A stretch of 64,000 nt of DNA, from positions 10,457,712-10,521,711 of the forward strand of contig JAJEKV010000011.1 of the NCBI GenBank assembly GCA_021234155.1, given 5' to 3'. Positions 1-58,560 of the stretch are shown piece by piece; within the stretch, counting starts at the first letter, position 1; each line of letters begins with the position of its first letter. Origin of the DNA: Isoetes taiwanensis (taxonomy: Eukaryota > Streptophyta > Lycopodiopsida > Isoetales > Isoetaceae). Made by a program: the position numbers and the translations under genes. The notes beneath the pieces were generated by a model that was given only the letters and a program-made list of their open reading frames with translations, did no database searches and was not told where the DNA came from.

Positions 1-539
1 CATAAGCAATTACGTTCACTTCTGTTATTAGCTTCTCCAAGTAAGATACCATAGTCTTCAATAGGTAATCACCGTCATTTATGTCAGGCACGAAGGATCT
101 TGGTGTGATGCAGGAATCTGCATTATTCTTAAATTTCACATACCTGTAAGGATCAATCAGCAAAGTTGTCCTCATGCTAAATTCTGGACATTTCTCATAA
201 ACTTTTGTGAGTTTTTTGATGTAGCAAGAAGTTCCTCCTTTCATTTTCAAAGGTTGCACCATCCATTTGAAAAGAAACTTATCCACTAAGGACAGAGGCA
301 TGAAAGACCTCTGGCAGCTAATCACTGAGTGATTGGAAGACCATATACCAACAGCAAAATGTTCGGTGACGAATTGCATGAACTGCACTGCCCCTGGCCT
401 GACAGCAAGAACCTCTTTTCTTGATGGATAAAGTTGGACACCTTCCACCACATCAGGTACTGCTTCAGCCTTTTTGAAAACCTTGTACATGAAATCTTCT
501 GGCTCAATAACCAAAAGCTTCTTGCCAACAACACTAGCA
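1..539 (-). CDS. FCP1/SCP-like (HAD) domain protein, C-terminal exon, runs off left edge
   Basis: The minus strand is open from about 539 to base 1. It begins after an acceptor-like TTGCACAG and reads VVGKKLLVIEPEDF, then LYPSRKEVLAVRPGAVQFM, then FAVGIWSSNHSV, and later TLLIDPYRYVKF and RSFVPDINDGDYL. The order (a strand ending in acidic residues, a 'RPG..QFM' segment, 'GIWSS', a 'LLIDPY' segment, a late 'D.NDGDYL') matches the FCP1-homology/NLI-interacting-factor fold of plant HAD-like phosphatases. The expected catalytic DxDx(T/V) at the first strand is not seen; IEPED stands there, so the protein may lack phosphatase activity. Both the upstream exons and the end are missing or outside the window. 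Family moderately sure; activity unknown. Confidence 0.6.
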
Positions 540-540
540 C

Positions 541-767
541 TGTGCAATGACAACTATTAGAGAAATTATATCAGTACAACAGGCAGAAAGAAACACACTA
601 GAATCACCTTAGTTTCTGTTAATATTTGTTCAGCTTATAGTTGATAATGATGAACCTATTTGTCTGACTAACTGTGATGTCTGTGATGTTATACAAGAGT
701 CAAGAAGCAAGAAATGATTGATACCTAATGCTAAGATCATAGTTGCACTATAGAGTTGAGATTGGAA
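541..767. other. Unassigned stretch between FCP1-like exon and copia LTR
   Basis: AT-rich sequence without a convincing ORF. It is probably intron or flank of the minus-strand FCP1-like gene, whose acceptor lies at about 540. No RNA gene or repeat recognised. Confidence 0.4.
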
Positions 768-3781: not shown

Positions 3782-6075
3782 CTAAGACTCAGTTATGTGC
3801 AAAAGTATGAGGAGTGATGAAGGAGGGATCCAGGACGTCATCTCATCATGTTCATTTATGCCATCCTCATCACCTTCACTTCTTTCACTGTCACTAGAGG
3901 AAGTGCTTGAGTTATCTTCCTCATCACTATCAACAGATGGTGTAGCATTGCCACCACCTTCTCCATCCTCTTCTTCGTAATTACAAGCTTTTTTAAGCAA
4001 ATTGATAGTCCTCTGGCGTAGACGATTGTCAGATTTCAATTTAAAATCATAGCACAATATAGTCACGTCATTAAGGATCAGCTCATCCCTACAACCCACC
4101 TTCTTGGACTTTCTCCCTTTTCCTTGGCTTCTCATTTCTAACTCATATCTACCTTCAAAAGCATTTTCTGAGCGTGTTGCAAGCCAATGAATCTTGAGTT
4201 TAGTGACTAAGCCTTCCTCCTTGACTGTGTCAAGCACTTTTGCTATCCAAAAAGGTCGACCTTTGTCATCCTCCTCAGTTGGAAGAGCAATTAGCATACC
4301 CTTGGTAATTTCTGTGATATTACCTTGAGGCTCATTCCTGCGTCTTGGTCCGAGGTACATGACTCGATCCTCGTCTTCTTCTACTGCAGGTGCTAATGTA
4401 GCATTGCTTGGATCTGCTTGGTGCTGGGGTTGATGGAAGGTGTTAGGCCATCCAAATGGTTCTTGCAAGCTGTCTTAGAGCTATATTTTTCACAACAATT
4501 TTACATTAGAAAGAAATTACTCCACCACATCCGATCTTCTTCTAAGAAGTACTTAAAGCCTGAGGAAATTCCATTTTCAATGGCTTTTAGAGAGGAAGTT
4601 GCTCAGCACGTTCTATGAAGGAAGTGTCTGGAATATATTTAAGGAAGCGTAATCCCTCTGGTGGACTCCAGTCCTTAGTTGTGGTATACTTCTTTCCCTG
4701 TAAGAAACTTTGGCCATCCTTCAAGTAGAACTTGATGTGATGTTGAAAGGTGAGATCATTCAACTTGTTCACAGCTTGTTCTCTGTCTGAACGTTGAGAG
4801 AAAACAAACTCTCTGAAATCAGCAGTCTCTTTAAGAAGATCGATCACTGGAGTGGGAGTGTAAGAATCTTCAATAATTCGAACTAGTGTAGGAAGAGAGA
4901 AAGCCTTCTTCCTTCTAAGGCGCACAGAAAATCTGCTGAACATTTGGTCAATTTGATCATGAGTGTGGCCTACAAGTAAGAAACCGAGCTTCACTTTTCT
5001 AAAGATCCCTAGCTCCACTAACATAGCACAGTATGCAAAGAGTGTTTGATTCTTGTTCTCCCTTGTAGTGTTGTCAAGTTGCAGGTAAAGCACTGGTGGT
5101 AATTGCTCTTCCTCGCACAGGACCTTGTTAAGAATTGTAATTGTGAGGTTCGGGTCACCATGCAAGTTTGGATATGTCAAAAATACTTTGCACTTTAGAC
5201 TTCCTTTGAAGACCATAGCTCCTACAAGGTGGACCTTAACAAAACATTCCTCTGGCACATCTTTAGGAATGTTCAAGAAATGTGGTAGTTTTTTTTTGGT
5301 CCATTCCATCAATCACAACAGACATATATTGCAGTGGACGTTCAAGAGCTTTTTTTCTGTGCTTGGCAAGCTTTCTTCTCTCTGCTGCTTGTTGTTCACG
5401 ATGTCTGGCAAGGTTCTGTTGCACAATATCTGTAGAAGAAATCAGGTCAAAGCATTTTCTTTAAAACAAGTGAGAGATTGGAGAACGTGAGCTTACTTCT
5501 TTCGACCTCTGTCTTTGCAGTTTCTCGTTGACTCTTTAATTCTGCACACCTTGAGCAAACAGACATTCTATGTTTTCTGGGAATTTTCACAAGACCGAAT
5601 TCACTTTTCCACAGTCTGGTGAAGTGTGAGTAAGAGATGTGCTGAAGCTGAGTGCAAGTCTCTTTGTACTCATTGAAAACATCTTTTTTGGTGATGTTAT
5701 CAGTTAAATGATACATGTTGCTGTTAGGTAGCTTCTCACATGTTTCTCTGAAATATTTCTCCATCCATGACACAGCAGCAAGGGCATGCATGGTTACAAC
5801 TCTTCTTGGTCCACAATGATCATCGATTGCTGGATTTTTGTCCAGTCTTTTATGTATTCTAGACATTCTGGTGGACCCTAAACGGTGGACAACCATAAAA
5901 CATTTCTGGCAAACTTCTTCACGGTTAATGTAGTGCAAGAAGGTGTTGCGGTCTGGTCTTACATGATAAGCTAAGTAGGCATTCTGGTCTGCCAACACTA
6001 GAGCAACACTACCCACCACATACATAGCACAGAAAAGCAGAGAATACATATCACCACGAGCACAACTGTTTGCTA
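3782..6075 (-). pseudogene. DUF7869-type transposase-like protein, frameshifted
   Basis: Three minus-strand blocks belong together. The first (about 6075-5500) has 'GPRRVVTMHALAAVSWMEKYF', 'YSHFTRLWKSEFG' and a VCSRCAELK cysteine pair. After a GT-AG intron of about 78 bases (about 5498-5421) come 'YMSVVIDGMDQKK', 'LYLQLDNTTRENKNQTLFAY' and 'GFLLVGHTHDQIDQMFSRFS'. A charged C-terminal block ends at 3782. The Asp in VIDGMDQ, the Asp in QLDNTTRENKN and the His/Asp in GHTHDQID fit an RNase-H-like catalytic core, which is how this widespread family of repetitive genes is generally read; no reaction has been shown here. The frame breaks in the A-run at about 5290 (one extra A) and again at about 4590, so this copy should not make a full protein. 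The N-terminal region is replaced by a LINE 3' end at 6076. Confidence 0.65.
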
Positions 6076-6340
6076 TGAGTAAGTCTGAATCTGAAGATAT
6101 TGCTCCCAAATGACACTCTTGACGTCATCCGTTAAGGACGAACACTCGTACACCTTAATAATGCGACTACGAGCATCACTAAGCACTTGCGTAGCTGAAA
6201 AGACCCGTCCCTTGAAGATGAGGAGATTTCGTCTCTTCCAGATGGACCAGATGATCCAAGCAGATGCTAAGTGGAAAGCCCTCTTTGCCAACTTGTCCCA
6301 AGAGCTAGGATAGACTGACAATAGGACCTGCTTCAAAAGC
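6076..6340 (-). mobile_element. 3' end of an L1-type LINE ORF2
   Basis: Minus-strand reading gives 'AWQWLLKQVLLSVYP', 'KRAFHLASAWIIWSIWKRRN', 'VYECSSL' and an end at IWEQYLQIQTYS-stop. This parallels the C-terminus of the larger LINE at 43.3-45.5 kb ('QRAFHLGSGWLLWSIWERRR', 'AYECSSL', 'IWIQYLRIDSYH'), so both belong to the same clade. The expected 3' UTR and poly(A) are absent: the stop codon is followed at once by the DUF7869-type coding sequence. Sequence up to about 6546 stays open but is not clearly LINE-like. Confidence 0.7.
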
Positions 6341-43292: not shown

Positions 43293-45455
43293 GTGCTAAG
43301 AAGTGGCAGAATTATGGCAAGGCTTGTTGGCAATGGCAGTATGCTGAGACTGGGATTTGGGGAACAATTCACATCAGATATTATGAAGCTGCATATCTCC
43401 GCTCGGGCGACTGTCCTCTTCCATGGTGAGCCGTCACATGCCTTTTCACTCGGTCGTGGTATTCGCCAGGGATGCCCTTTAGCACCATTGCTTTTCACAA
43501 TTGTTGCAGAGGCTTTGTCACAGTTATTCACCATTGCAACGACAGAGGGACTTCTCCATGGACTTGCAATGGAGGACGGCACACAAGAGGTTTGCAATCA
43601 ATATGCATACGACATGTTCCTCTTTCTAGTCGCTAATGATGAGAATCTTGCTGTTGCCAAAATGCTTTTAGATACTTTTTTTTCTTTCGGTGTTCTTGTT
43701 CTTGTGGGTGGCAGTGTACGACTTTGTGGACTTTGGATAATCCGGCTCCGGCATGTGTTCACGATTATCCATGGAAATTACTTGCGCATGGACAGGCCAT
43801 CAAGTTGTTGGGGATTCCAGTTGGCATCCATGTTACTATAGGAGCTGCATGGGAGGAGATCATTAGGGGTTTGGAGAAGCACTTGTTACGGTGGTCCTTT
43901 GCTAAGTTGTCTCTTCTTGGGGGCATTACGGTGGCCAAGTCGGGTCCTTAGTAGTACCCATGTTTATATGGCATCCTTACTTGCTAGCTCCACATATCAA
44001 AGTCGTGAGCTCATTGCAAATTAGTTCAAACTTTATTTGGGCAGGTCTTGAGGAAGGTGTTGTGGTTAAGGTGGCTTGGTCGAAGTGCATCCTTCCAAAA
44101 TGGGCGGGTGGTGCAGGTATGATGGACTTCTTCTTTGCGCAGAAAGCAAAGTGCTTATTTCAAAGTTCATTTGGAGACTTCGAATGGTGAGGATGACTCT
44201 CCGGTTCACGCCTTCTTAGACAAGCCCTTGGTCCTTTGTATCCCTCTAGGCAAGAAGGTTGTCAAACCAGTCCTACCTTGGGCTTTATTTGGACTCTGCG
44301 GCCTTTTCCAAGTGCTTCTCCATTTTTTGCGTGGCTTATTGGCGTGTGGGAGGCAGATCGGACATCTTTTTCTGGCCATGCCCCTCTATCCACACCCTAT
44401 TAGAGACTCGTGGTGGTGGTGGGCACCACTTGCCTCCGAACCCCTCGGCACCTCCATTGGCAGCCTCGGTTCATCCCCTCACCACAGAGGCGATGGGTTC
44501 TTGCGGTGTTGTCTCTATTCAAGCATGGTATGAGGGCGGATTCGGCCCTTTGTCTTGGCCTGAATTTGGGCAAAGTTCCTGCTCTCTCGTTGGGATGTAT
44601 CTCTATGGGAGAAGGTCGCAGAAAATTTGCCTCTTATAGTGCAAGTTGGTGTTGCTGAAAGGGTGCCATGGGACTGTCATGAAAATATTCACAAAGGCAA
44701 GCAATTTGTCAGATCAGTATATCGCCTTCTTTTAGCACCACAACCCCTCCAGTTGCCAGATGGGTGGCACCTACATGTTTCACAGCCCACTTTGTGTCGT
44801 ATATGGCGATGGCTTTGGGATAGGTTGCTCCACCCTAAAGTCTCTGTACTGTGGTGGCAGGTTATCCACAGGTGCCTGCGGGTTAATACCTTTCGACATC
44901 GCTTTGATCCTCACATATCTGCAGTGTGCCCGCTCTGTCTTTCGGATGTTGAGACTCTTGAGCATTGTCTCTTTGATTGTCCTGAGGTTCAACCAGCGTG
45001 GTCCTGGCTACAAGGTTTGTTTAACAGTACATTGGACTGCCGATGCATCCTTTTGGCGTCCTATCCCGATGCATGGCCTTCAGCTAAACAAAGGGCATTT
45101 CATCTTGGCTCCGGTTGGCTCCTATGGTCGATATGGGAGCGTCGCAGACACCACATCTTTCAGGGCATTTACTCATCTGCACACAGTGTTATTACAATGG
45201 CCCATAAAAAGATATTGACAGCCTACGAGTGTTCCTCCCTTGACTCAGAACTGGTGGAACGCATCTGGATTCAATATCTTCGAATTGATTCTTATCATTA
45301 GTCTCCTATTCTGGAGTAAGTACATTGTGCTCCAGGCTCGTGCTCCTGTGGCATCTTTGTGTGCTTACACAGTTAGATGAGACATGTAAATTTTGTACTT
45401 TTTCTCTGATTAATAAACTTTTTGGCTTTCGTCCTTCAAAAAAAAAAAAAAAAAA
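43293..45455 (+). mobile_element. 5'-truncated L1-type LINE with poly(A) tail
   Basis: The first readable motif is 'LGFGEQFTSDIMKLHISARA', then 'GRGIRQGCPLAPLLFTIVAE', both RT, then CNQYAYDMFLFL at the catalytic box, where the usual YADD is altered to YAYD. Frames then shift several times. The C-terminus is intact from about 44690 to 45301 (CPLCLSDVETLEHCLFDC zinc motif; 'QRAFHLGSGWLLWSIWERRR'; stop at 45299). A 3' UTR of about 140 bp with TTAATAAACTT and a 17-A tail follows. A target duplication is not certain; AGATGCAAT-like words sit on both sides. Confidence 0.85.
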
Positions 45456-45730
45456 TGATGATGCAAACACAAATTCTGCAGATTCCTAAACCCAAATCCT
45501 TCAAATACATGGAGACGGCTAGGAAAAGTCCAAATCTCTCCTGTGAATAACAGATACGAAGAATGGTTAGAGGACGAGGATCAACAGTTTAGGTTCACAA
45601 AAATTTAAGGAAGGGATTCGAGATATTAGGTCCGCAGAAGCATATCAAATATGGTTAAGCAAATCGATTGCCCCAGTGGTCGCTAGAGTGAGGAGAAATT
45701 CGAAGGTCACTCGAGTAAGGAGAAATTAAA
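45456..45730 (+). repeat. Segmental duplicate, first copy
   Basis: GATGCAAACACAAATTCTGC ... CAAATCCTTCAAATACAT ... GGTTAGAGGACGAGGAT ... ATTGCCCCAGTGGTCGCT is repeated in the same order at 46405-46680, about 90% alike. No ORF. Confidence 0.85.
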
Positions 45731-46404: not shown

Positions 46405-46680
46405 TGTCGATGCAAACACAAATTCCGCAGCCAAATCCTTCAAATACATAAAGACGGCTGAGAAAACTCCAAATCTATTATGCGAATAACAGATAGGAAG
46501 AATGGTTAGAGGACGAGGATTAACAGTTTAGGTTCACAAAAATTTGAAGGAAGGGATTTGAGATATTAGGTCCGCAGAAGCATATCAAATATGGCTGGAC
46601 AAATCGATTGCCCCAGTGGTCGCTGGAGTGAGGAGAAATTCGAAGGTCGCTAGAGTGAGGAGAAATTCGAAGAAGGTGAA
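46405..46680 (+). repeat. Segmental duplicate, second copy
   Basis: Second copy of 45456-45730. It has a further internal duplication of GTGAGGAGAAATTCGAAG near its end. Confidence 0.85.
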
Positions 46681-46849
46681 TGCTTTTGCCTATACACGTG
46701 GCGTACAGATGTATAAGCTAGAATTGCACGAAATCGTGCTGTGTATAGGCTAGAATTGCATGAAATTGTGCACCTCGGATTATGGTTATGCAACCCTACT
46801 AAAAATTACAAAGAATAAAAACATCTTGAGAAAAAAGAACAAGGTGCTG

Positions 46850-46910
46850 CACACGGAGGGTTGCCCTCTATGGCCCGAGGGTGAAGTGGCTTAAATTAAA
46901 TCCACATGTG
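46850..46910 (+). repeat. Fragment of the family forming the 1.13-kb inverted repeats
   Basis: GCACACGGAGGGTTGCCCTC then CGAGGGTGAAGTGGC matches the outer end of the arms at 15867 and 19514. Confidence 0.75.
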
Positions 46911-47766
46911 ACCTCTGTCACGAAGCCAATACTATACTAAGGAGCTTAAAATTGTCAGGGAAAAGGCAGGTAGATCATGTTGAACGTGGTCTTAAGTTCT
47001 TCACCACGGGTTTATTGCAAAAAGGGGAACCATTGATTTATGTTGAGAAATCGGTAACATACCATGGACGTATATCACTCCCATTGATTCTTAAAATATT
47101 CTCCCTTAGTGCTAAGCTTGTGTAGAAGAGTAAGAGCCAAGCCTGAAACACCACATGATCTGTATTTGAGAAATAAATTTATGAAAAATGACAATTGTGC
47201 AGCATGACAAAACAGATGAACCTGATATAAGTCGTATTTAATTAAAGTGGGACTCATTCCATTCCCATTTTTTTTCGGAACCCTGTTAATTTACATGAAA
47301 AAGAGCACCCCGACCCGAAAACTATCCTTAATTCGATTTTTTGTCTAGAACTCTGCATCGAAGCTTTCCTCCAGTTTTCCCTGATTAGCGAGTCGAGAAC
47401 AAGAACAATGCAACTGCAATGGAAATTCATTACAGATTGAAATCAAAGTTCTAGATTGAAACCAAAGTTTACAATGGTTGAAGATATCATGATGGTCGGG
47501 CTGACACAAATATTACATCATCTTCGCACACAGACCACCTACTGGGAACAACATGCGAGCAAGGTGCGGCGTTCCAAGCCACAAGAGCAACTTGAAGAGA
47601 ATAGAAATCTGAACACGCTTAGGCCCGACATGGCTCCCGATCATGTCCTTTTCATTCGCGATTTGTGCTGGGAAAGGCAAAATCAAGTTAGTGCAAGTGA
47701 TGTTACGAACAATACAAATAAGAAAACAACCAGTTCTAAGGGCCATTTCGAAGAATGTAGGTGTGA

Positions 47767-48080
47767 GGCCTTTTCGACTTCATGAGTCGAGAAAGGCCCC
47801 TCCGATGTAACTTAGAGCCCAAAAACAAAAAACAAGGAAAAAAAATTCCTTCTTTTTTTCTAAGTAAAAAAAAAAAAAATTTTTTTTGGGGCCTTTTCGA
47901 CTCGCGAGTCGAGAAAGACCCTCAAGGCCCCCTCTAATGGCCTTTTCGATTTCAGCGAGTCGAGAAGCGCGAGCTTCGAGTAAAAAATTTTTTTTTTTTT
48001 TTTTTTTTTAACTAGGAAAAAAAAAGTTTTTTCAAGAAAAATTTTTAAGGGCCTTTCTCGACTTCGTGGATCGAGAAAAG
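47767..48080. repeat. Series of GTCGAGAAAGG palindromes
   Basis: At least three near-perfect palindromes occur: 47767-47798 (GGCCTTTTCGACTT/ATGAGTCGAGAAAGGCC), 47888-47921 (GGCCTTTTCGACTCGCGAGT/CGAGAAAG) and 48049-48080 (GGCCTTTCTCGACTTCG/GATCGAGAAAAG), with a partial one at 47940-47966. They alternate with A- and T-runs of up to 22 bases. Confidence 0.8.
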
Positions 48081-49317
48081 CATCGAGAGTAAAAAACGCA
48101 GTTTTGGGGGTTGAGAAAGGCAGTTCGAGGTGGAAAAACATTCGAGGTTCAAGAAATGCCGATTTGCCCTCTGGAGATATAATTTCTAGCTCCAATCTCA
48201 TAGAGCACCAATCATGACTAATTGGACCAGCAATGGTATTTTCTATGTATTTTCTAATGCACACCATATCTTATGCATTTATTATGTATACATATAAAAA
48301 AAATAGACCACGCCTTTTATAATATATCAATGTTTACCCATAGCTTATTTCAAATATAGATTTTCCAAATGGGACACTATGCCTAGCACCACTAAGGTCA
48401 ACATAAGGGGTAAAATATGATTATACAACCATACATATATAAATACACAACCATGCTATTAATTTGCGACAAAAATTCAAATATTTATACGGGTGACACT
48501 AATAAAATGATAGCCCACGCTATAAGGATTTTAATAATAAGGATTTTAATAATTCAAATTTTCCCATAACCTTAGAAAAAAAACCCATTAACCTTAGAAA
48601 AATAACTCATTTGCCACGCTATATCCGTATTTTTTTTTTCTCTAGTATTTGGCTTTTTTTTCCTCCCACCTCTTAAGTTCGAAATTTAAAATTGAAAAGG
48701 GGGGAGATTTTCGAAATTTGAAATTGAAAAGGGGGGGAGATTTGGTACGTACCTTTTGAGAAGAAGAAATTTGGTACACTTACGAAATCGTGGCTGGCTA
48801 TGGCGACCTCTCAAGAACCTGGCTATGGCATGGAAGCGGAGCTATTCAAGAACCCTCTACGCTACATCCTCCATATTCATTGCAGCAATTCTCCATATCC
48901 ATCATTTGTAAAAACAAGCTGGATTCAAATCAAGCATCCTCATACTGTTTTTTCCAACTATAACCTCAAGAACTCATATCCCAAAGCCTCCTCCGGGGTT
49001 TGCATCCGAAAAGCTGATTTCTTGTAATAAATCAGATATGTAACTGAAGCATTCCTTGAAGATCGAGGAAGGAAAGAATCGATCGGATTGAGCGAGGGAC
49101 TACCGTCATGGTCGAAGCTCGAGGTAAGATCTTGCATTTATAAGTGTAAGAAAGAAGCCGCCATAGCCGGGGTAAAATCGATAGTGGAATCGAATCTCCA
49201 TAGTGGAATCCGACCGATAGAGGGAAAACCCGGCTAAGAGACCGCTGGAATTGATGGCGCCGGAATCGAAATGTATTGGAGCCCTCCCAGCCTGCATCGG
49301 GATGATTCCACGCCTGA

Positions 49318-49376
49318 TTTGCTCGGTTTTAGCAGTTCCGGATATTGCTCGGTTTTAGCAGTTCCGGATATTGCCA
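49318..49376 (+). repeat. Tandem duplication, 26-bp unit
   Basis: GCTCGGTTTTAGCAGTTCCG-GATATT occurs twice in a row. Confidence 0.95.
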
Positions 49377-49512
49377 ACAACACATCGGATGGGAAATAGA
49401 AAAGGGGCGGGGGCCAGCTACAACAAGAAACAAAGATCCAAGGGAGCAAAGGTGGAGGGAGGCTATGGAGGCAGGGAGCAAATGGAAGGAATTGGATCTG
49501 CGAAATTAGAAT

Positions 49513-49995
49513 TGGAAGGTATGCGAAATTGGATTTGGCAACGGGGGTTCTGCGCAGGCTTAATTTTTTTGGCTGGCGGGGGTTTCGGAGAATCGCCTTA
49601 TCGCATTGGGATGCTCGTCCGGATGGGCAAGCCATAGCCGTGAAGCGACACAAGCCCGCCGGTGCCCAAGGGGATAAAGAGTTTCGAGCGAAGTTGAGGT
49701 CCTCATTTGCGCCAAAGACCAAAACGTGGTCATGCTCATCTGCATCGTGATCGAAGATAGCAGGCGGAGTTCATCTGCAACGGATCTCTAGATGCCCATT
49801 TGTATGGTGAGATTTGCCAACCGAAGATTTATTTGCCCAGTGCTAATTGGGTTGGTTTCATTTTTGCAGGACGGAACCGGCCCACTTTGGAGTGGTGTTC
49901 TTGTGAGAAAATCGCTATTGGAGCTGCTAGAGGACTAAGCTATTTGCATAAAGAATGCCGCGTTGGTTGCATTGTGCGTCCCAACATATCACCAT
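49513..49995 (+). pseudogene. Captured receptor-like kinase fragment
   Basis: In shifting frames the plus strand gives YAKLDLATG, NFLAGGGFGE (glycine loop), DGQAIAVKRHKPAGAQGDKE (catalytic Lys), EVEVLICAKDQNVVML, then CNGSLDAHLYG. After an intron at about 49806-49868 (GTGAGATT...TTTTTGCAG) come 'RPTLEWCSCEKIAIGAARGL' and SYLHKECRVGCIV. This order and wording match the plant receptor-like cytoplasmic kinases related to PERK and the 'inactive protein kinase SELMODRAFT_444075' group. The fragment ends before the HRD loop proper (IVRPNIS where IVHRDMRPNNI is usual, so H, R and D are lost) and lacks the C-lobe. At least two frameshifts are needed. The retained intron shows it was captured from genomic DNA, not from mRNA. 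Confidence 0.8.
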
Positions 49996-50159
49996 GCTGA
50001 GCCCATTCTCGCCACGCGGGGCGAGAAAAAAAAACAAAGGAAAAAAAAAAATTATCTAGTTAATTATGTTTGATTTGTATTTAATAAATCATTGAGTGTA
50101 TTTTAATTGTATTAGTTATTATATTGTATTTATTATATTTATTTATTTTATTATTTACA

Positions 50160-50470
50160 ATCCCTACTTTTGGATTCATCCCTTCTCCCCTTTTTTCCCT
50201 CCCCTTGCCATCTCCTCTTTGCCATCTCCTCTTTGCCATCCCCTCTTCGACTTTGCTTCTCCCCTTGTCATCCCCTTTGCCATCTCCCTCCTCCTTTGCC
50301 CCTCCTTGTGCCCCCCGTTTGCCCTTTGCCATCCCCCTCATCCTTCGCCCCTCCATGTGCCCCTTTGTCCCTCCTTGCCATCAGATTTGCCCATTGCCAC
50401 CCCCTCCCCCTTTGCCCCTCCCTGTGCACCTTTGCCCCTTGCCCAGCCACCCTCCATGGGCATTTCCTTT
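50160..50470 (+). repeat. Pyrimidine-rich minisatellite
   Basis: Degenerate repeats of CCCCTTTGCCATC and CCCTCCTTTGCCCCTCC words fill 300 bases. Long frames on both strands here are products of the composition. Confidence 0.85.
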
Positions 50471-51420
50471 CTACTCTTCTCCCGGTGAACTAGTTGTAAA
50501 TTCTATGAGAAAATCATGTGAACTAGTTGTATGAGTCCCATTTTCAGTCCGAGTCCCAAAATTCAAGATTTGTCCCACTTTAATTAAATGCGACTTATAT
50601 GCCTGGACCGGCAAAGCTGGAAAACAGCCCTTCCAAAGGAGATCCTTCAATAACAAAAAAACACATGGGAATGCCAGAAACAGCACTGCAGTGGTATCCT
50701 GAAATCAGAAAATCGTAATAAAACCAATAACCAGTATAAAGAATAGCTTTTATACAATAAATCAAAGCTGTGGTTTCTAATAATATTACCCTATAAGCAT
50801 TATACTCTTCCTTTACTTTTAAACGAATATCGTTTCGCGTTGCCCTCACGTTCACTGGACCAAGCAGTAACTTAAGCAAAAGTCCTATATGCAATCATGT
50901 AAACAGGATGAGATTAAAATCTATCAAAAACAAGAATAATAATTACGCGCCAAATCACCATTTGTTTTATGAGGTAAGAGTGCAGCAACATCCCCTTCAT
51001 AAATCATAGAGCAAGCCCTGTACAAATCTTCCTCTAGCTGCAGAACCATTAGTAAATTAAGCGTTGCACATACTGCATATCTTGGAACTATTATTCCTTA
51101 CTTTCTCGACAAAGTTGTTTGAAATTGCATCTTTTTCAATCAAATCATTCAGCGCTCTCTTCAATTGTTTAATTTCAGAATCAAGGGCCAAAGCCTGTTG
51201 GCTCAAAGCCTGAGATTCTGTTCTTACATAGCTACTATGTGCAGAAACTTTGTCTTCTAGAATTTTTGCCCTGTCAAGCAAGCTTGTAACTTCTTGCACG
51301 AATACCGTTTCCTGGCTACTATTTTCGACAGCCCTCAAATGGTTATCACCAGATTGTCTGCCATTAGTCTCAGTCGCAAGTTCCTCAGGGCCAGAACTAG
51401 TCATTTTGCCTTGCTTCTAC

Positions 51421-53060
51421 GCTAATTCTGATTCTAACTAAAAATCCAAGTATGAATTGCACACTCCATGGAGTATGGGAAAAATCGTGCCAAGTATAGG
51501 AGCTTATAAGAGGCACATGAAGCCCTGAATAGAATGCCAAGTCGGGATGTCAAATAGTGGACATTGTGGTTCCTACTTATACAGAGCTTCTGTTGGAGAG
51601 TGTCTTGAAGATACGCATCAAATCAAATGATGTGATTTTTCTTACCATTGTTGCTGCATCCAGTCATCCAGGTCTAGTAAATGAAGGTCTAAACTATATC
51701 ATTCATGTCCATCATGCCAGATACTCTATACCTGCATAGTCGAGCTCCGTGGTCGTGCAAGATGTTTGAAGGATGCAGAGGATGCCTTTCAATCTTTCCA
51801 GGCCAAATATTGCTGGCTGGACATGCTTGTTTAGTGATATCAGCATATATTCTGATGTTCAGATATGAGAGAAGGCTGCAAAAGAGCTTAGAGAATGATG
51901 AAAAAAACCTGCAAAGGCATGGATTGAGAAGTTGGTATGGTGGTTTATGAATTTGTGTCAGAGATAAATCACACAGATAAAAGTCAGGAGATGTTACAAT
52001 GTTAAAGAGATTAAGTAGACAAATGCAGAATGAATGTTTCATGCCAAAAATGGATCTAGTGTTGCTGAGAATATCACGTTTGGTGGGAAGGAAGCACTGT
52101 CAGAAACTTGCAATAGCTTCTGGACTTATCAGAATAAGCCTAGGTGCAACCCTTCATGTTACAAAGAATCCTTGCGTATGCCAAAGATGGGTTCTGTTCT
52201 CTTGGGGATTATCATTAGTGTTCTAATCCAAGAATGATAGTGGTTTACGTTTTGTCCTTTGAATTATAAAAGGCCCAAAACATATCAATATATAATGGCC
52301 CTTCTTCGGAAGCATAAGCGAAAGCATAAGCAATCAAGCATAAAAGGCCAAGATTCGGAAGGGAGGAGGGTGGCAAAGCAAGCGGGGAAGCGCATGCAGA
52401 GAAGCAGACGGAAGGAGAGGAGGCGGTGGCCGCTCCGTAAAACCGGGAAAACCGGGAGCACTATTACTTAAATATTATTTTAAAGGAAAAATGCCATAAT
52501 TTCAACCTTAGGTGATTACGTTATTACCTTGAGTTGTGAAGCATACAATATGAATGGAGTTGAGTATATTGAGTTGATTCCATTTTTATGGTCCCCAAAG
52601 ATAATAGATCAAAGACCAGAAACAAAAAGATAACAAAAAAAATCTTGGTGGGGCCATTTTCTTAACTCATTAATAAATTTTGTTGTTTCCTTCCAACCGT
52701 CAATATAAAATGTAGTTGGCTTTTTTTGTAAGAGCAATAGAATTTCTGATAAAATTCAATCTTGAATTAGAAGCTCTTGAAAATTATGGATTGTTTCGTT
52801 TACATTTTGTAGCTCAAGGGTTATCTTTTCACTCTTCTTCCGATTATCCTCCGAATTTTAGTTGGCACTTTCTTCGTGTATCCCGGAAGGTTTATTTTCT
52901 TCAGCAGGTGTTTCTTGGTCCCCGTGATAAGAAAAGAAATACTTTAACACAACAGAATGTATTCGCTTATGTGCCATGGTCCAATGCTACCAAACGGTTT
53001 CACAAAATCAAGATGCAAGCCCTATTCACCGGCATTGTGGAATGCCAATATGCCAACTAG
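51421..53060. other. No supported gene
   Basis: Short frames only. The 52716-53060 plus-strand frame (114 codons, starting MAFFVRAIEFLIKF) is the longest, without a recognised motif. A purine-rich block (52330-52450) gives a lysine/arginine-rich frame that is probably compositional. The 51404 start of the TMEM120-like gene suggests its promoter is at about 51405-51600; no clear TATA box. Confidence 0.35.
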
Positions 53061-53099
53061 AATTGCAAGAACTTTTGTCTAAACAAAAATGACTGGCTC

Positions 53100-53899
53100 T
53101 TGGCTTGATCCTTAGATACCTTCCTCATCCAATGGGATAATCTTATTGCAGATGTCCATGGCATGGACTATCTATTGCAACTCCAGAATATCCGAGACCA
53201 CATGGTGCCATTAACGAACGAAATTTGTGAGCGACAAGCTAGGTTAGACACATATCGGATACAAAATGGACATGCATCTGCGGCAAGAGATGAATAGCAG
53301 CGTGCTATCATAAACAAGATCTAACCGCTTGTCTTATCATCGACAGGTCCATGCATATCAATATGGTGGATAACTTACCCGCTTGTTGTTCTTGAGTTCC
53401 TATCCAAATTCCAATCGCTTTATGAAAATAAGACAAAGGCTGCTTTGGTACTTTACCTCATAAGTTGTTCTTTACGCTTTTCCATCCCGGATATTTCCAA
53501 AGATAAAATCAACAACACCTTTGAGCAGTAAATATGCGGTGACATTCTCATCAACTATCTCGAACCACACACCCATGTGGAATACTATCCATCCTGTCTT
53601 AGTCCCCGCGAAAAGAAATATGTAAATATTGAATGATTGCAAAGATGATAAAGATGACAAACGATCACTGTTGCATGTACAAAGATATATGATAAAACAA
53701 GCCGACCAAAACAAAAGAATTTTAAAGCTTAACCTTAACAACCGATAATGCCGCCAAAGTTGCAATATCTCATGCACGGTCTTCTATAATAGAAAAGGAA
53801 TTGTCAAGACGGCAACCTACTTAACAGCTCCTACCGCCATGGACCAACAAACAAGTGAGGATAACGAAGCCTAGTAGTTAATCTAACAATATATTACCT
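53100..53899 (-). other. Possible decayed ValRS 3' sequence
   Basis: A minus-strand AMDICNKIIPLDEE-like string near 53160 could be the start of the anticodon-binding helix bundle, but the similarity is slight. An open frame at 53777-53472 is hydrophobic and unassigned. Confidence 0.25.
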
Positions 53900-55797
53900 T
53901 TGCCTTGGATGCACGTTGTACACATCACGCAAGTTGGGACTACCTTTCACCAATGGAGTAACTAAAGACATTTGCTCCCTTACTTCTTCATTTGCCCATT
54001 CCGGTAATGCCTCTAATCTCTAATCTTCTTCTAATCTCTTATGTAATGCCTCTAGGGTGACACCATTGATGATTTCAAGTGGATCAATCACATTGCCCAA
54101 TGACTTTGACATCTTACGACCATGTGCATCCCCGACCATTGCATGGAGATAGACCTATGTCAAGACAAAGCCACATATTGTCGGGTAACTTCAGATAGGA
54201 CAACAGGGATAATGATCAAGCCTATCACTAGTTTAACCTGTTTGAATGGAGTATGACCGTTAACCTCATTCCCAAAGATCACCATTCGAGCAACCCGGAA
54301 AAACAAAATGTCGTGGCTGGGTTTCCAAGAGAAATGTCGGATAAAACGTTTTTTAAATCCAAGGTATCCCCCGCCACCCCATCACCGAAAAGGGGAAAAG
54401 CCCGGAGGAAAACCAAGTATCAAGAACATCGTGGTCCCGAAAGTGATGCGATAACTCTTTCCAGAAACCGCTGTGCAAAAACGGTGAGTTTGCATCATCT
54501 TCATTCCTTGCCACTATCCAATTGGTCGTTATATGCACCAAGCTCTTTCATATATCATCATCTTCCAATGTTACATACCATGCGGTTACGATGCCCCCAC
54601 CAAAACCGTCTAGAAACACACCAATCCCTAATGTCTTCCAACCACCTAAAATGGAACCCAAGAAAACACAAAATGAAATCTTTATTCTTATGTCACCCGG
54701 ACATATTTAGAAAAAGTTATCAACTACCCGAACCATACATCTTCAAACTGGCTAGGAATAATCTCTAATTCCCCATTTTTCACAAGATCGCAGCAGCCTT
54801 TGCCATGCCAGCACAGCTCACATACCACTGGGGTTTGATTATGGGTTCTATAACATCATTACTTCTTGAACAGATACCTAATCTCATAGGGTTATCAGCA
54901 ACTCCTTTGTACAAACCCTGCCAAATTAAGATCTTATTATGTTAAAACCCCATACTTGCTTTTCTAAATTCCTTTGCAGCTTGAAGTCCTAAAGCGACCC
55001 AATAGCTTCATGTGCAATTTTGCCTCATCGGAACATTTTTATTTGCCAGAAGACTATTGATCAATCAAAAGCTAAATATGTGGTTTAGGCTTGCTCAGTA
55101 GATCAAGGAGGTTCATACCTTTTCCTCCAATGCAGTTACGACAGCAACACGTGCATCAAACCGCTTTAATCCCTGGAACTGAGTCCCACCATTGCTATTT
55201 ATATTACCATCATCAGTAAAAATATTAATAAATGGCAAGTTGTGCCGTTTGCCAACTTTATAGTCGTTTGGGTCATGTGCTGGAGTTATCTGCAATATGA
55301 ATACCACTGTAATTGGCCTAAACATGGAGAACAAATAGATATAGGAACACATTGAGTACCTTCACTGCACCAGTGCCAAAGGACATATCTACTAGTTCTC
55401 TATCACAAATGATGGCAAGCTTTCTCCCATTGAAGGGATGAATTGCAAATTTCCCATGCAGCTTCAGATATCTTGGATCATCTGGATGGACTGCAATTGC
55501 AGTATCACCAAGCATTGTTTCGGGTCTTGTGGTAGCAACAATGATTTCTCCCAAGTCACCTTCTAAGGGATATGCGAACGATGTTATTGCTCCAAATTCA
55601 ACAGTAGTTTCATATCCAGGTACCCTAACTGATGTCCTGCCTGGAAGGTCAATATATTCAACCTATATACAGAGTATAGAGCAGCGGTCAATATACTCTT
55701 GAGCATATAACACAGATCATATATCACAAAAACACACCTCAATATCAGATATCGCTGTTCGAAGCGTGCAATCCCAGTTGACAAGCCGGTTATCCCT
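53900..55797 (-). pseudogene. Valyl-tRNA synthetase, internal exons, 3' part frameshifted
   Basis: Minus-strand exons carry, in order: 'RDNRLVNWDCTLRTAISDIE' (about 55797-55739); [20 protein letters not shown], '[20 protein letters not shown]' and MSFGTGAVK (editing domain, about 55664-55360); [20 protein letters not shown] and [15 protein letters not shown] (about 55290-55120); [20 protein letters not shown] and [16 protein letters not shown] (about 54919-54790); '[19 protein letters not shown]'; [18 protein letters not shown] (about 54440); and [20 protein letters not shown] with [15 protein letters not shown] (about 54155-54040), including the KMSKS loop. These are diagnostic of class I ValRS. 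Exons right of 54920 are clean; those left of 54800 need several single-base frame changes and contain stops. The 5' end (HIGH motif) and the anticodon-binding domain are not found intact, so I call it a partial, probably dead copy. Confidence 0.8.
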
Positions 55798-55859
55798 GGT
55801 CAAATAGGCAAATGATTTTAATTTGACATCCTAAAACAATGCCCAATGCAATGAAGCAA

Positions 55860-56880
55860 ATGAATTGATTCTAACATCAACCTATAAGGATCAACTAGAA
55901 AATTGATTAAGCCAGGCTTTTAAAACCAGGCAATTGATTAAGCCAGACAAATTCAAGAAGACTTCTTAACCACAAGTTTCGTAATATTACAAATAACAGA
56001 AGAACTTCTTCCTATGGGATGCAGAAAATTAGCAAGACTCTGGAGATGTTAATTCATTTGTTCTTTATTTTTGGAAGACGTCGTAATTGGAGATAAAAGG
56101 AATACCTATAAATCAGATTTTCCTTGTGCAATTGAACAAAGGCTTCTATAATGACCTTTACATCCGATATCGCCCATTGTGAAACACCGGTTTTAGAACA
56201 AAAAAGAGGTCGTGGTCAATGAAATAGGGGTTTCAACCATATAACAAGAATGCCTTTAGAAAACCATGACCAATCAAAATGATAGATAAATCTATTGTAG
56301 TGTCAGTAGTTTCGCGGATTCCCGATGCAAATGTAACTCATGTGTCATAGCTTCTTCAAGGACAAGTGGTAAGGTAGATGCAACATCATATGGAGTTTGA
56401 AGAAGAAAAGTTAGTCACAATAATTATAGATTCAAAATGATAGGGATGTGGAAGGATCAGATTAGTAAGGACAGAATCATGCTGAAGCTAAGGCATTGAA
56501 CTTAAATTTGGTGTATCAGTCTGTTAAGCATAAAAATTATCATGCCTTGGCCACCGCTGCAAAGAAGAGAGAGAACCATATAAGAAACAAGTTATGTACG
56601 TTGGATGTGCTGCAATGGGATAATGGGGCCACCTAATACCAACTTTGCAAGAACATGGTCATGTCTGCTCATAAAATCCAAAAAATCCGTCGACCTACCT
56701 GTGCGCGGAATTCGTGAATACGGATGGCGTCCTTTTGTGATCCAGTATACATGAAGAGTATTTGCTTGGTCCTATTGTAAACTGGGCAAATATCTATGGC
56801 GGATCAGGATCCAAACTTCGGTTAGCGGGATACCGGCAACGGCGATGACCTAACAAACAAAGGGTTTTAGAGAAGATTTT
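55860..56880. other. No supported gene
   Basis: AT-rich; this is where the ValRS 5' exons would be expected on the minus strand, but I do not find the HIGH-motif exon. No long frame. Confidence 0.35.
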
Positions 56881-57130
56881 GGCATATTCTAGGTATATGC
56901 TAGCATATACCATGAATATGCCAAAAACCCACATAAACAAGGGATTGCCCCCCTTGGGTTGCTTCCGGTTAGCCGGTATGCACAGCAGCCGCCTGCCAAC
57001 AGCGATGACCTAACATTTACAGCTTACAGCAGGTTTTTAGCAGTTTTTGGCATATTCTAGGTATATACTAGCATATACCATGAATATACCAAAAACCCAC
57101 GTAAACAAGAGATTGCCCCCCTAGGGCAAC
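56881..57130. repeat. Tandem pair of palindrome-bearing repeats
   Basis: GGCATATTCTAGGTATATGC/TAGCATATACCATGAATATGCC at 56881-56922 is a 42-base near palindrome, repeated with substitutions at 57049-57090. Both are followed by AAAAACCCAC and a GATTGCCCCCCT-type motif. The same arrangement occurs at 20405. Confidence 0.8.
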
Positions 57131-58560
57131 CCAAAAACGGGGTACTTTTATATTGCCACATGGCAAAGTGGGATGCACCCTGAGTGCGCGAAATCTCTGA
57201 TAATACCGTTATTGAAGGGAATGGTTTGGTCTAGAAAATGTTTTGGACGATGTCTGAAGCGTTCGTGCGGATTCTAGAGTGTACGACCTCGTATACTGGT
57301 CTCAATTTTCAGTTACTCCAAGGGAAGAGGTAAAAAATACCTGTTTTTGGTTTTTTCGTCGGGAAAGATACCTTTGAAGTCGGATGTTTCTTTTGATCAG
57401 ACTGCCGTGATCTACATCATCCTGTGTTTTCCCGATTGCCGTTGAGAGTTCAGGTTTGCTTAAATCTGGCTGTAAATATGTTAGAAACTTTGTTTCTCTG
57501 CTATTTCCTTTCGCTAGAGCTCAGAGTAGATAGATGAATGCATCGGCAAAATTAAGAAATTCCGTGGTCCAGGTTGTCAAGACTTCAGAATGTCTTCTTT
57601 TCTATAGGATTTAAATGCAGATCGTAGTATCACAACATATTTGGATGATCCCTAACTAGGTCTGGTCCTTCGGTCCCATCTTCTAGAAATTCCTTAGACA
57701 GGTGCACTCCCAACATTTTTTTGACAGATTGATAGACAGACAAACATTTTCTTGACTATTTTTCTGTGCTTTCATGAGGTATAAATTGCACTGCAGATGT
57801 CTTTGTCATTCATACAGCCATTCCCCTTTACGTATTTGGTTGGTTTGTTACAATCAATGCTGTTAGATGAGGTTCGTGCATTTCCCTCATTATGGTTGAC
57901 CTGAAGCATTGATATCCACATCAGCACACCAAGGTTCATTTTTCAAGTAATAAAGAATGGCATATGAACTGGGGGACCACTGGGGGACCAGTGTTGGTCT
58001 TACTATACCCAGGCATGTTCTTGTCTTAACAAGATTTCGACGAGCCTTGTCTTTAACATTTATAGGAATATCCATAAGAGCTGCAAAGGATGAACAGCAA
58101 CAACTTCTATGAGGGCCAAGGATTTTATTCCGGTCTTGACATCACAAGCCTTGGTGCTTAACGTCTATGAGATTCCAATTTTTGGTATCTACAAAGTTCC
58201 ATAGTTCTGGAATATCCTTAAGAACTGCATATGGGACCTTCCATCAGGGACAAGGATATTCCTGTCTTAACAAAATTTGCACACACAGGACTCGGTGTGG
58301 ATATCCAGAAAAGTTGCATAAGCGTGGGATGTTCTGTCTCCATGAGAATACCTGCATTAAGTATTCTTTATTCATTCTCGAAGAATTGTATCGTCTTAAC
58401 CTTTGGAGAATCATGTATTAATACCCATTAGCATGATGTTCCATAATGATATGCAGAGGTACATATCAATCTGCCAAAGCCAATATTCATGATGATGGCT
58501 TCTAGTGGATATGTGATGATACATGCAGATCGTCCACGCGTTTTCTCGTTCTGGACTCTA
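57131..58560. other. No supported gene
   Basis: One minus-strand frame at 58075-57890 (starts MDIPINVKDKARRNLV) has exon-like composition. Parts of 58030-58075 are echoed at 58210-58300 (CTTGTCTTAACAAGATTT, TCCTGTCTTAACAAAATTT). No family recognised. Confidence 0.3.

Follow-up and report, generated by a model that had tools for sequence, protein, structure and literature searches.

The stretch of DNA analysed here, called the window, comprises 64,000 nucleotides of Isoetes taiwanensis (contig JAJEKV010000011.1, positions 10,457,712 to 10,521,711). In it, a truncated copy of a TMEM120-like gene is interrupted by an insert of 3,368 bp. Very probably this insert is a Pack-type cut-and-paste transposon which would be mobilised in trans by the DUF7869 protein of 11.8-12.3-kb members of the same family, would carry a kinase gene piece from a single capture at the DNA level that was later amplified, and would have inserted recently. 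The name of the superfamily is not part of this assessment. The insert has inverted ends and a target duplication, holds a piece of a host gene with a likely parental locus elsewhere, and has no transposase of its own: no Pfam match to one was found in the plus-strand frames of 47700-49500 or in the plus-strand stretches around the kinase piece. Helitrons were ruled out, as the element has inverted ends and a target duplication.

The insertion and the family of AAGTCG ends

A first-pass annotation of the window had correctly located the insert of 3.37 kb with its inverted ends, as well as the exon junction and the piece of a kinase gene. Some details had to be changed. The annotation gave the inverted ends about 26 bp, beginning TAAGTCG. 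In our alignment 29 letters match with one mismatch if ATAT is counted in, and without ATAT the repeat is 25 bp and begins AAGTCG. TA and ATAT had both been offered as the target duplication. Since 23 of the 25 listed pairs of ends (see below) show exact 4-bp duplications of varied sequence, it is ATAT and not TA, and because the duplication is these 4 bp, the element proper is AAGTCG...CGACTT.

47229-50596, plus strand: non-autonomous Pack-type terminal inverted repeat (TIR) element, AAGTCG...CGACTT, 3,368 bp (inverted ends, empty site in a paralogue, genome-wide family ends)
47225-47228: left target-site duplication, ATAT (flanks of the pairs and empty site)
50597-50600: right target-site duplication, ATAT (same evidence)
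47229-47253, plus strand: left TIR, 25 bp, AAGTCGTATTTAATTAAAGTGGGAC (end-to-end alignment)
50572-50596, minus strand: right TIR, 25 bp, differing from the left one at a single position (end-to-end alignment)
47222-50698, minus strand: fourth exon of the truncated TMEM120-like copy, which the element divides into 50698-50601 and 47224-47222 (plus one ATAT)

The insertion point lies three letters upstream of a splice donor. Joining the flanks with a single ATAT gives GCA TAT CAG|GT, that is ALPVQAYQ followed by the GT donor, so that excision restores Ala-Tyr-Gln and the donor as predicted. An empty site is present in contig C1100 (5217300-5220300, slice L032), where 1100 of 1119 positions (98%) are identical to the joined flanks, with no gap. 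Matches at C919:14551... and in C949 run contiguously across the insertion site without the element, and in a diverged TMEM120-like gene at C1058 the insert is absent at the corresponding place. The exact ATAT duplication is the mark of an insertion, and the claim of a single event is supported.

The family was searched for in 1,658,258,908 bases on 1,110 contigs. With a 28-letter pattern of the end and up to 3 mismatches, 1,636 forward and 1,665 reverse matches were obtained, and none with the reversed pattern. A pattern free of the TA, made of the 25 letters of the end and one A/T ten places out, gave 1,274 + 1,292 = 2,566 ends at no more than 1 mismatch (reversed control 0 + 0). Thus the ends are not confined to this locus, and the element has other copies, as had been expected of a TIR element.

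Among 100 listed ends, neighbours in inverted order and at most 30 kb apart were paired, which gave 25 pairs, and their duplications were tabulated as the annotation had proposed. Exact 4-bp duplications were seen in 23 pairs, against an expectation of 0.33 obtained by exchanging left and right flanks among the pairs. Two C128 pairs with identical flanks represent one duplicated locus, which leaves 22 of 24 independent pairs. Only one pair shows a duplication longer than 4 bp, within a run of A, and none matches over 7 or 8 bp. Eleven pairs span 3.5-5.8 kb, twelve 11.0-14.8 kb and two 23-25 kb; the last two probably contain other insertions. Beyond the duplication GC is preferred, with G at +5 in 17 of the 25 right flanks, and no more than 3 of the exact duplications, 23 in all, conform to the motif AWWT. 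The short members studied below, L012-L017, are every short inverted pair among 100 listed matches of the 28-letter pattern, the window's own aside. They were chosen with TA adjoining the end and are therefore uninformative on the duplication.

Full-length members and the DUF7869 protein

The search for full-length copies with a likely transposase, also suggested by the annotation, led to two members with family ends. The first, C907:9786513-9798279, has 11,767 bp and the duplication AAAG/AAAG. The second, C1038:15175938-15188256, has about 12.3 kb and the duplication TGCT/TGCT; its sequence was compared from both sides, with the middle excluded. Both are better preserved than two further members, A996 (12,287 bp) and A974 (12,113 bp), which are 87.8% identical across their whole length. 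For the first 2.6 kb of A996, matches were scored at 40 of 2,506 candidate places. The window element has its end regions in common with the 12-kb members; no DNA match to their interior was seen with BLASTN.

47229-47461, plus strand: left end region common to the 12-kb members, about 230 bp, 87-90% identical to the C907 and C1038 copies
50528-50596, plus strand: right end region common to the 12-kb members, about 70 bp, 94-97% identical to the same copies
L029:2149-2832 (minus) and L031:481-1311 (plus): NIF/FCP1-type phosphatase frame of the 12-kb members (PF03031)

The C907 member has an uninterrupted frame of 830 amino acids with the Pfam domain DUF7869 (E 8.4e-44). The C1038 frame has 591 amino acids and continues past the stop position of the C907 frame. 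Between the two, the ratio of nonsynonymous to synonymous substitution (dN/dS) is 0.16 over 441 codons. The gene has the same position in all four 12-kb copies examined, and every one of the 150 places that were scored, out of 7,253 candidates, has it at 89% identity or more. In an alignment of DUF7869 proteins, conserved aspartates stand in the motifs (I/V)xDxMDQ, QLDN and GHTHDxID, the first of which falls outside the truncated row from the window. Other transposase families had no Pfam match in the six frames of the 12-kb member slice L008, a scan that stopped short of the last 2.5 kb (L009). The DUF7869 protein is the likely transposase of the family. A comparison of this protein and the second frames with PDB by sequence returned nothing useful, and the name DUF7869 was not found in the literature searched.

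On the opposite strand, the C907 member has frames of 229, 288 and 397 amino acids. The first matches PF03031 (NIF phosphatase; E 2.9e-10), as does its C1038 counterpart (E 4.4e-10), with a dN/dS of 0.35 over 180 codons; this phosphatase may be a passenger gene useful to the element. The 288- and 397-residue frames have no Pfam match. A ParB-like second gene in the AAGTCG family, read from motifs, was not borne out by Pfam or NCBIfam.

DUF7869 proteins also occur in at least one other family, represented by L026 and L027. Its second gene is divergent with a weak ParB match (L027: TIGR03764 at 17.8 bits, where the cut-off is 143.75; E 0.0021), and palindromes AAAGTGTATTCCGGAATACACTTT lie nearby. 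BLASTP at 1e-3 found no likeness between the second frames of the two families. A copy related to this other family is present in the window itself (3782-6109, minus strand) in several broken frames. A few kb from it, a frame at 2-553 (minus strand) resembles an FCP1/NIF-type phosphatase by eye; NCBIfam gave no meaningful match.

Relatives of the protein were also sought outside eukaryotes. The 227 pattern stretches from viral contigs included none, and the 77 from bacterial and archaeal contigs included one, L042 (CADCWO010000071.1). Its DUF7869 protein of 947 amino acids is 32% identical over 640 aligned positions and contains the same three aspartate motifs. The bin is labelled as a cyanobacterium; the contig may be a misbinned eukaryote.

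Captured gene pieces, palindromes and the host locus

The annotation described the cargo of the element as a broken receptor-like-kinase piece that had kept its intron, and from this it deduced capture at the DNA level. Both points agree with the alignment to a kinase gene at C1082:3034385-3034870 (minus strand), which extends over 497 bp at 80% identity and includes the intron.

49519-49986, plus strand: captured protein kinase gene piece, exon part, intron and exon part, frame broken (80% DNA identity to the C1082 gene)
49807-49869, plus strand: retained intron of the kinase piece, shorter than that of the parent (alignment to the parent; ends read by eye)

The C1082 locus scores as PK_Tyr_Ser-Thr (E 1.7e-14), and a 7-kb slice around it holds no family end at up to 5 edits. 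This gene, on another contig, is the likely parent of the piece. Because the intron is retained, capture would have taken place at the DNA level. Other element copies match the C1082 gene at 93.8% (C1045, over 534 bp), 86.3% (C1031) and 83.4% (C734), and six loci with the kinase piece bear at least one family end. For the junctions, the parent was aligned with six element slices. In all four whose sequence extends to the right edge (those of the window, L003, L035 and L036) the parental CCCAACA|TATCAC switches identically to CCCAACA|ACATAC, and L001 matches the window copy across this junction at 98.7%. At the left edge, L003 retains about 18 more parent bases than the window copy. Since the element copies share one right junction, a single capture followed by amplification and trimming is suggested. 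The CAACA shared at this junction is short but compatible with repair or template switching.

Other members carry other pieces. L015 contains an acyltransferase piece (PF02458, E 1.1e-12, three stretches scanned) whose approximately 345 bp are 95%, 91% and 81% identical to loci in C22, C917 and C1056; the slices of these loci contain no family ends. In L013 the only Pfam match is CENP-T_C (E 1.8e-5, below cut-off); a stretch of 27 residues is, we presume, histone H4. The interior frames of L012, L014, L016 and L017 have no Pfam match. L015, considered together with L045, also seems composite: to the left of 3217 it matches members in C1030 and C908, and to the right it matches a member in C1036 that has this acyltransferase piece too. 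This structure is compatible with a fusion of two elements.

The interior of the element also contains palindromes.

47774-47790: internal palindrome, a variant of the TCGACTCGCGAGTCGA type (palindrome scan)
47897-47912: internal palindrome TCGACTCGCGAGTCGA (palindrome scan)

The exact 16-mer TCGACTCGCGAGTCGA occurs 4,623 times genome-wide, and its control never. Palindromes of this type were counted in window 47229-50596, L008-L017, L028 and L029: three 12-kb copies have 7-11 each and seven short members 0-4, and all sampled members except L014 have at least one; the remaining 60.6 kb of the window have none. Half-sites occur at 2.1-3.3 per kb in members versus 0.13 per kb elsewhere in the window. 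As the half-site resembles the tip of the element, the palindrome is a likely candidate for the binding site of an element protein.

The interrupted host sequence is recognised as TMEM120-like by Pfam (PF07851, E 5.9e-8). The copy in the window holds exons 1-5 only. Its last exons were not found in the window with an approximate probe; the loci at C1058 and C1100 continue past exon 5. Because the copy is truncated and lies inside a repeated unit, no intact gene was split. Thus of the proposed split TMEM120-like gene, the division of exon 4 stands and the integrity of the gene does not.

46836-57137: repeated unit holding TMEM120-like exons 1-5, boundaries approximate (copies at C919:14551... 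and in C949)

The left boundary of the unit (46835-46838) is common to both copies, the right one near 57137 is seen against C949 only, and the C919 copy is partly doubled in tandem. The ends of the unit are AACAAGGTGCTGCRCACGGAGGG and GGGGCAACCCAAAAA. Beside the insertion site on the left the copies are 97-99% alike, and the insertion is younger than the split from the C919 and C949 copies. Further to the left, window 44600-45455 resembles, on inspection by eye, a non-LTR retrotransposon at its 3' end, poly(A) tail included, and a direct repeat (45460-45727 and 46409-46667, about 950 bp apart) is 88% identical over 269 bp.

Alternative explanations and known systems

The most probable course of events is as follows. 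The DUF7869 protein, read as a transposase of the DDD type that belongs to Sola or to a neighbouring group without a name, would cut at the AAGTCG ends and stagger the target by 4 bp. Produced by the 11.8-12.3-kb members, it would mobilise the short members with the same ends in trans. A single capture would have brought DNA of the kinase gene that today lies at C1082 into one element; the route would be repair or template switching, as is proposed for other Pack-type elements (PMC8277862, PMC13317346). The capturing lineage would then have been copied to at least six places, and one copy would have inserted recently at ATAT in the truncated TMEM120-like copy.

Several findings weigh against this scheme or parts of it. 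Two of the 25 listed pairs lack the 4-bp duplication, one in C6 (one letter off) and one in C10. In A996 and A974 the DUF7869 gene has decayed, and the 830-residue frame of C907 stops where C1038 reads on, so that none of these copies yielded a demonstrably complete transposase. Structure predictions for two pieces of the protein were unusable as evidence of an RNase H fold (predicted local distance difference test, pLDDT, 37.8 and 35.9). The window kinase piece has no Pfam match itself, and for this reason its name rests on the DNA match to C1082; it is no closer to that gene (80%) than to several element copies (79-87%). It is possible that the parent was an unsampled or lost paralogue of the C1082 gene.

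The decay of the gene in A996 and A974 would also suit the idea that the DUF7869 gene of the 12-kb members is a captured passenger and that another transposase moves the family, as would the commonness of DUF7869 proteins, which are found in at least one other family (L026, L027; 150 scored of 9,907 first-look candidates). We consider this improbable, as L008 revealed no other transposase family in the frames scanned, and the gene keeps its place in all four 12-kb copies, its low dN/dS and its identity of at least 89% at every scored place. Somewhat less probable still are several independent captures of the kinase piece. The variable left edge, with the additional parent bases in L003, and differences of up to 20% between the pieces would fit such a history, but the right junction is identical to the letter in the four slices that reach it, and the flanking element sequence is common to the copies as well.

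It is very improbable that the insert is a common Pack-type element belonging to Mutator, Tc1/Mariner, CACTA, PIF/Harbinger or hAT. In rice or maize, members that carry genes are described for all five superfamilies (PMC8903248), and transposases of CACTA are common in this genome: a search with PF02992 gave 167 matches, which is uninformative since CACTA elements are common but their ends differ. However, the 4-bp duplication of the listed pairs contrasts with 9-11 bp, TA, 3, 3 or 8 bp in these groups (in part from PMC8903248 and PMC10741241), the AAGTCG ends do not begin with CACTA, and L008 contains no Pfam transposase of the five. Taken singly, Tc1/Mariner was rejected for want of a TA duplication, Mutator and Pack-MULE because duplications of 7-12 bp are not seen (the one longer than 4 bp lies in the A run), CACTA by its ends, the absence of a 3-bp duplication and of a PF02992 (Transposase_21) match in L008, and hAT because no pair matches over 7 or 8 bp. 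That the 3.37 kb are simply a long intron, or arose as an artefact of assembly, is hardly conceivable. The position just before a splice donor and duplicated stretches in the assembly (the C118 and C128 flanks) speak for it; yet three paralogues lack the insert, one of them without a gap over 1,119 bp, the ends of the insert recur thousands of times and the ATAT duplication is exact.

With the Pack-type transposon as the preferred explanation, the question of its superfamily arises, for which the annotation could offer no name. The 4-bp duplication together with the DUF7869 protein narrows it to a Sola-like group. Sola is probably the right name, but the likeness was drawn from published descriptions and the family is therefore not filed as a Sola member. 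A further-reaching idea must be called speculative and rather doubtful: DUF7869 proteins could constitute a separate superfamily of transposases next to Sola, which would be the dominant gene-capturing cut-and-paste system of this lycophyte genome. Its full-length members would have two or more additional genes in opposite orientation, among them a NIF/FCP1-type phosphatase under constraint, and an element protein would bind palindrome arrays (TCGACTCGCGAGTCGA in the AAGTCG family, AAAGTGTATTCCGGAATACACTTT in the other) whose half-site doubles as the inverted-repeat tip.

No description of the AAGTCG-ended family was found in the literature, and by title and abstract neither a Pack element of the Sola type nor a case of captured genes in a lycophyte was recognised; Repbase was not consulted for either. 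In excerpts and by term counts, the I. sinensis paper does not mention Sola and that on I. taiwanensis (PMC8566536) does not use the term DNA transposon. Sola is likewise not mentioned in excerpts of the Pack-TYPE paper (PMC8903248) and of a 2026 review (PMC13317346). Gene-carrying TIR elements are described mainly in flowering plants and in five superfamilies (excerpts of PMC8903248). The same Pack-type behaviour would now be seen in a lycophyte, with a partner transposase from a different group that duplicates 4 bp. As donor gene, captured intron and shared capture junction can all be read, the mechanism of capture becomes testable outside the usual superfamilies. DUF7869, listed only as of unknown function, gains a concrete element structure with ends, duplication and gene order.

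Among known systems, Sola and above all Sola1 come close. Excerpts of PMC10741241 and PMC12477816 describe a 4-bp duplication, variable inverted ends and autonomous copies of more than 10 kb with accessory genes, all of which have counterparts here. In Sola1, for which Sola1-1_Ec32 of Ectocarpus served as the comparison element (PMC12477816), a second gene also lies opposite the transposase strand, and the transposase is of the DDD type (PMC10741241), to which three conserved aspartate positions may correspond here. In contrast to Sola1, the second frame of the AAGTCG family has no ParB or methyltransferase match, and a NIF/FCP1-type phosphatase frame is present instead. Furthermore, Sola is not common in flowering plants (PMC10741241), whereas the AAGTCG family has some 2,566 ends. 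Sola2, according to excerpts of PMC3627910, has A/T-rich 4-bp duplications and members that are chimeric, common at one end and unlike inside. These traits have counterparts here, but the AWWT rule of Sola2 holds for just 3 of 23 duplications, and the scanned frames of L008 contain no Fanzor by Pfam.

The Pack-TYPE elements Pack-MULE, Pack-CACTA, Pack-hAT, Pack-PIF and Pack-Mariner (excerpts of PMC8903248) are likewise non-autonomous, with inverted ends and a duplication of their own, lack a transposase, contain pieces of host genes, exist in multiple copies and are a source of composite elements. The AAGTCG family differs from them in its ends, its 4-bp duplication and its partner transposase. 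Animal Pack-TIRs (excerpts of PMC8277862) also hold unlinked genomic DNA between inverted ends, and gap filling or template switching is proposed for them. Yet they are mostly single-copy and mostly hAT or Tc/Mariner, whereas in I. taiwanensis what appears to be one capture is found at at least six loci.

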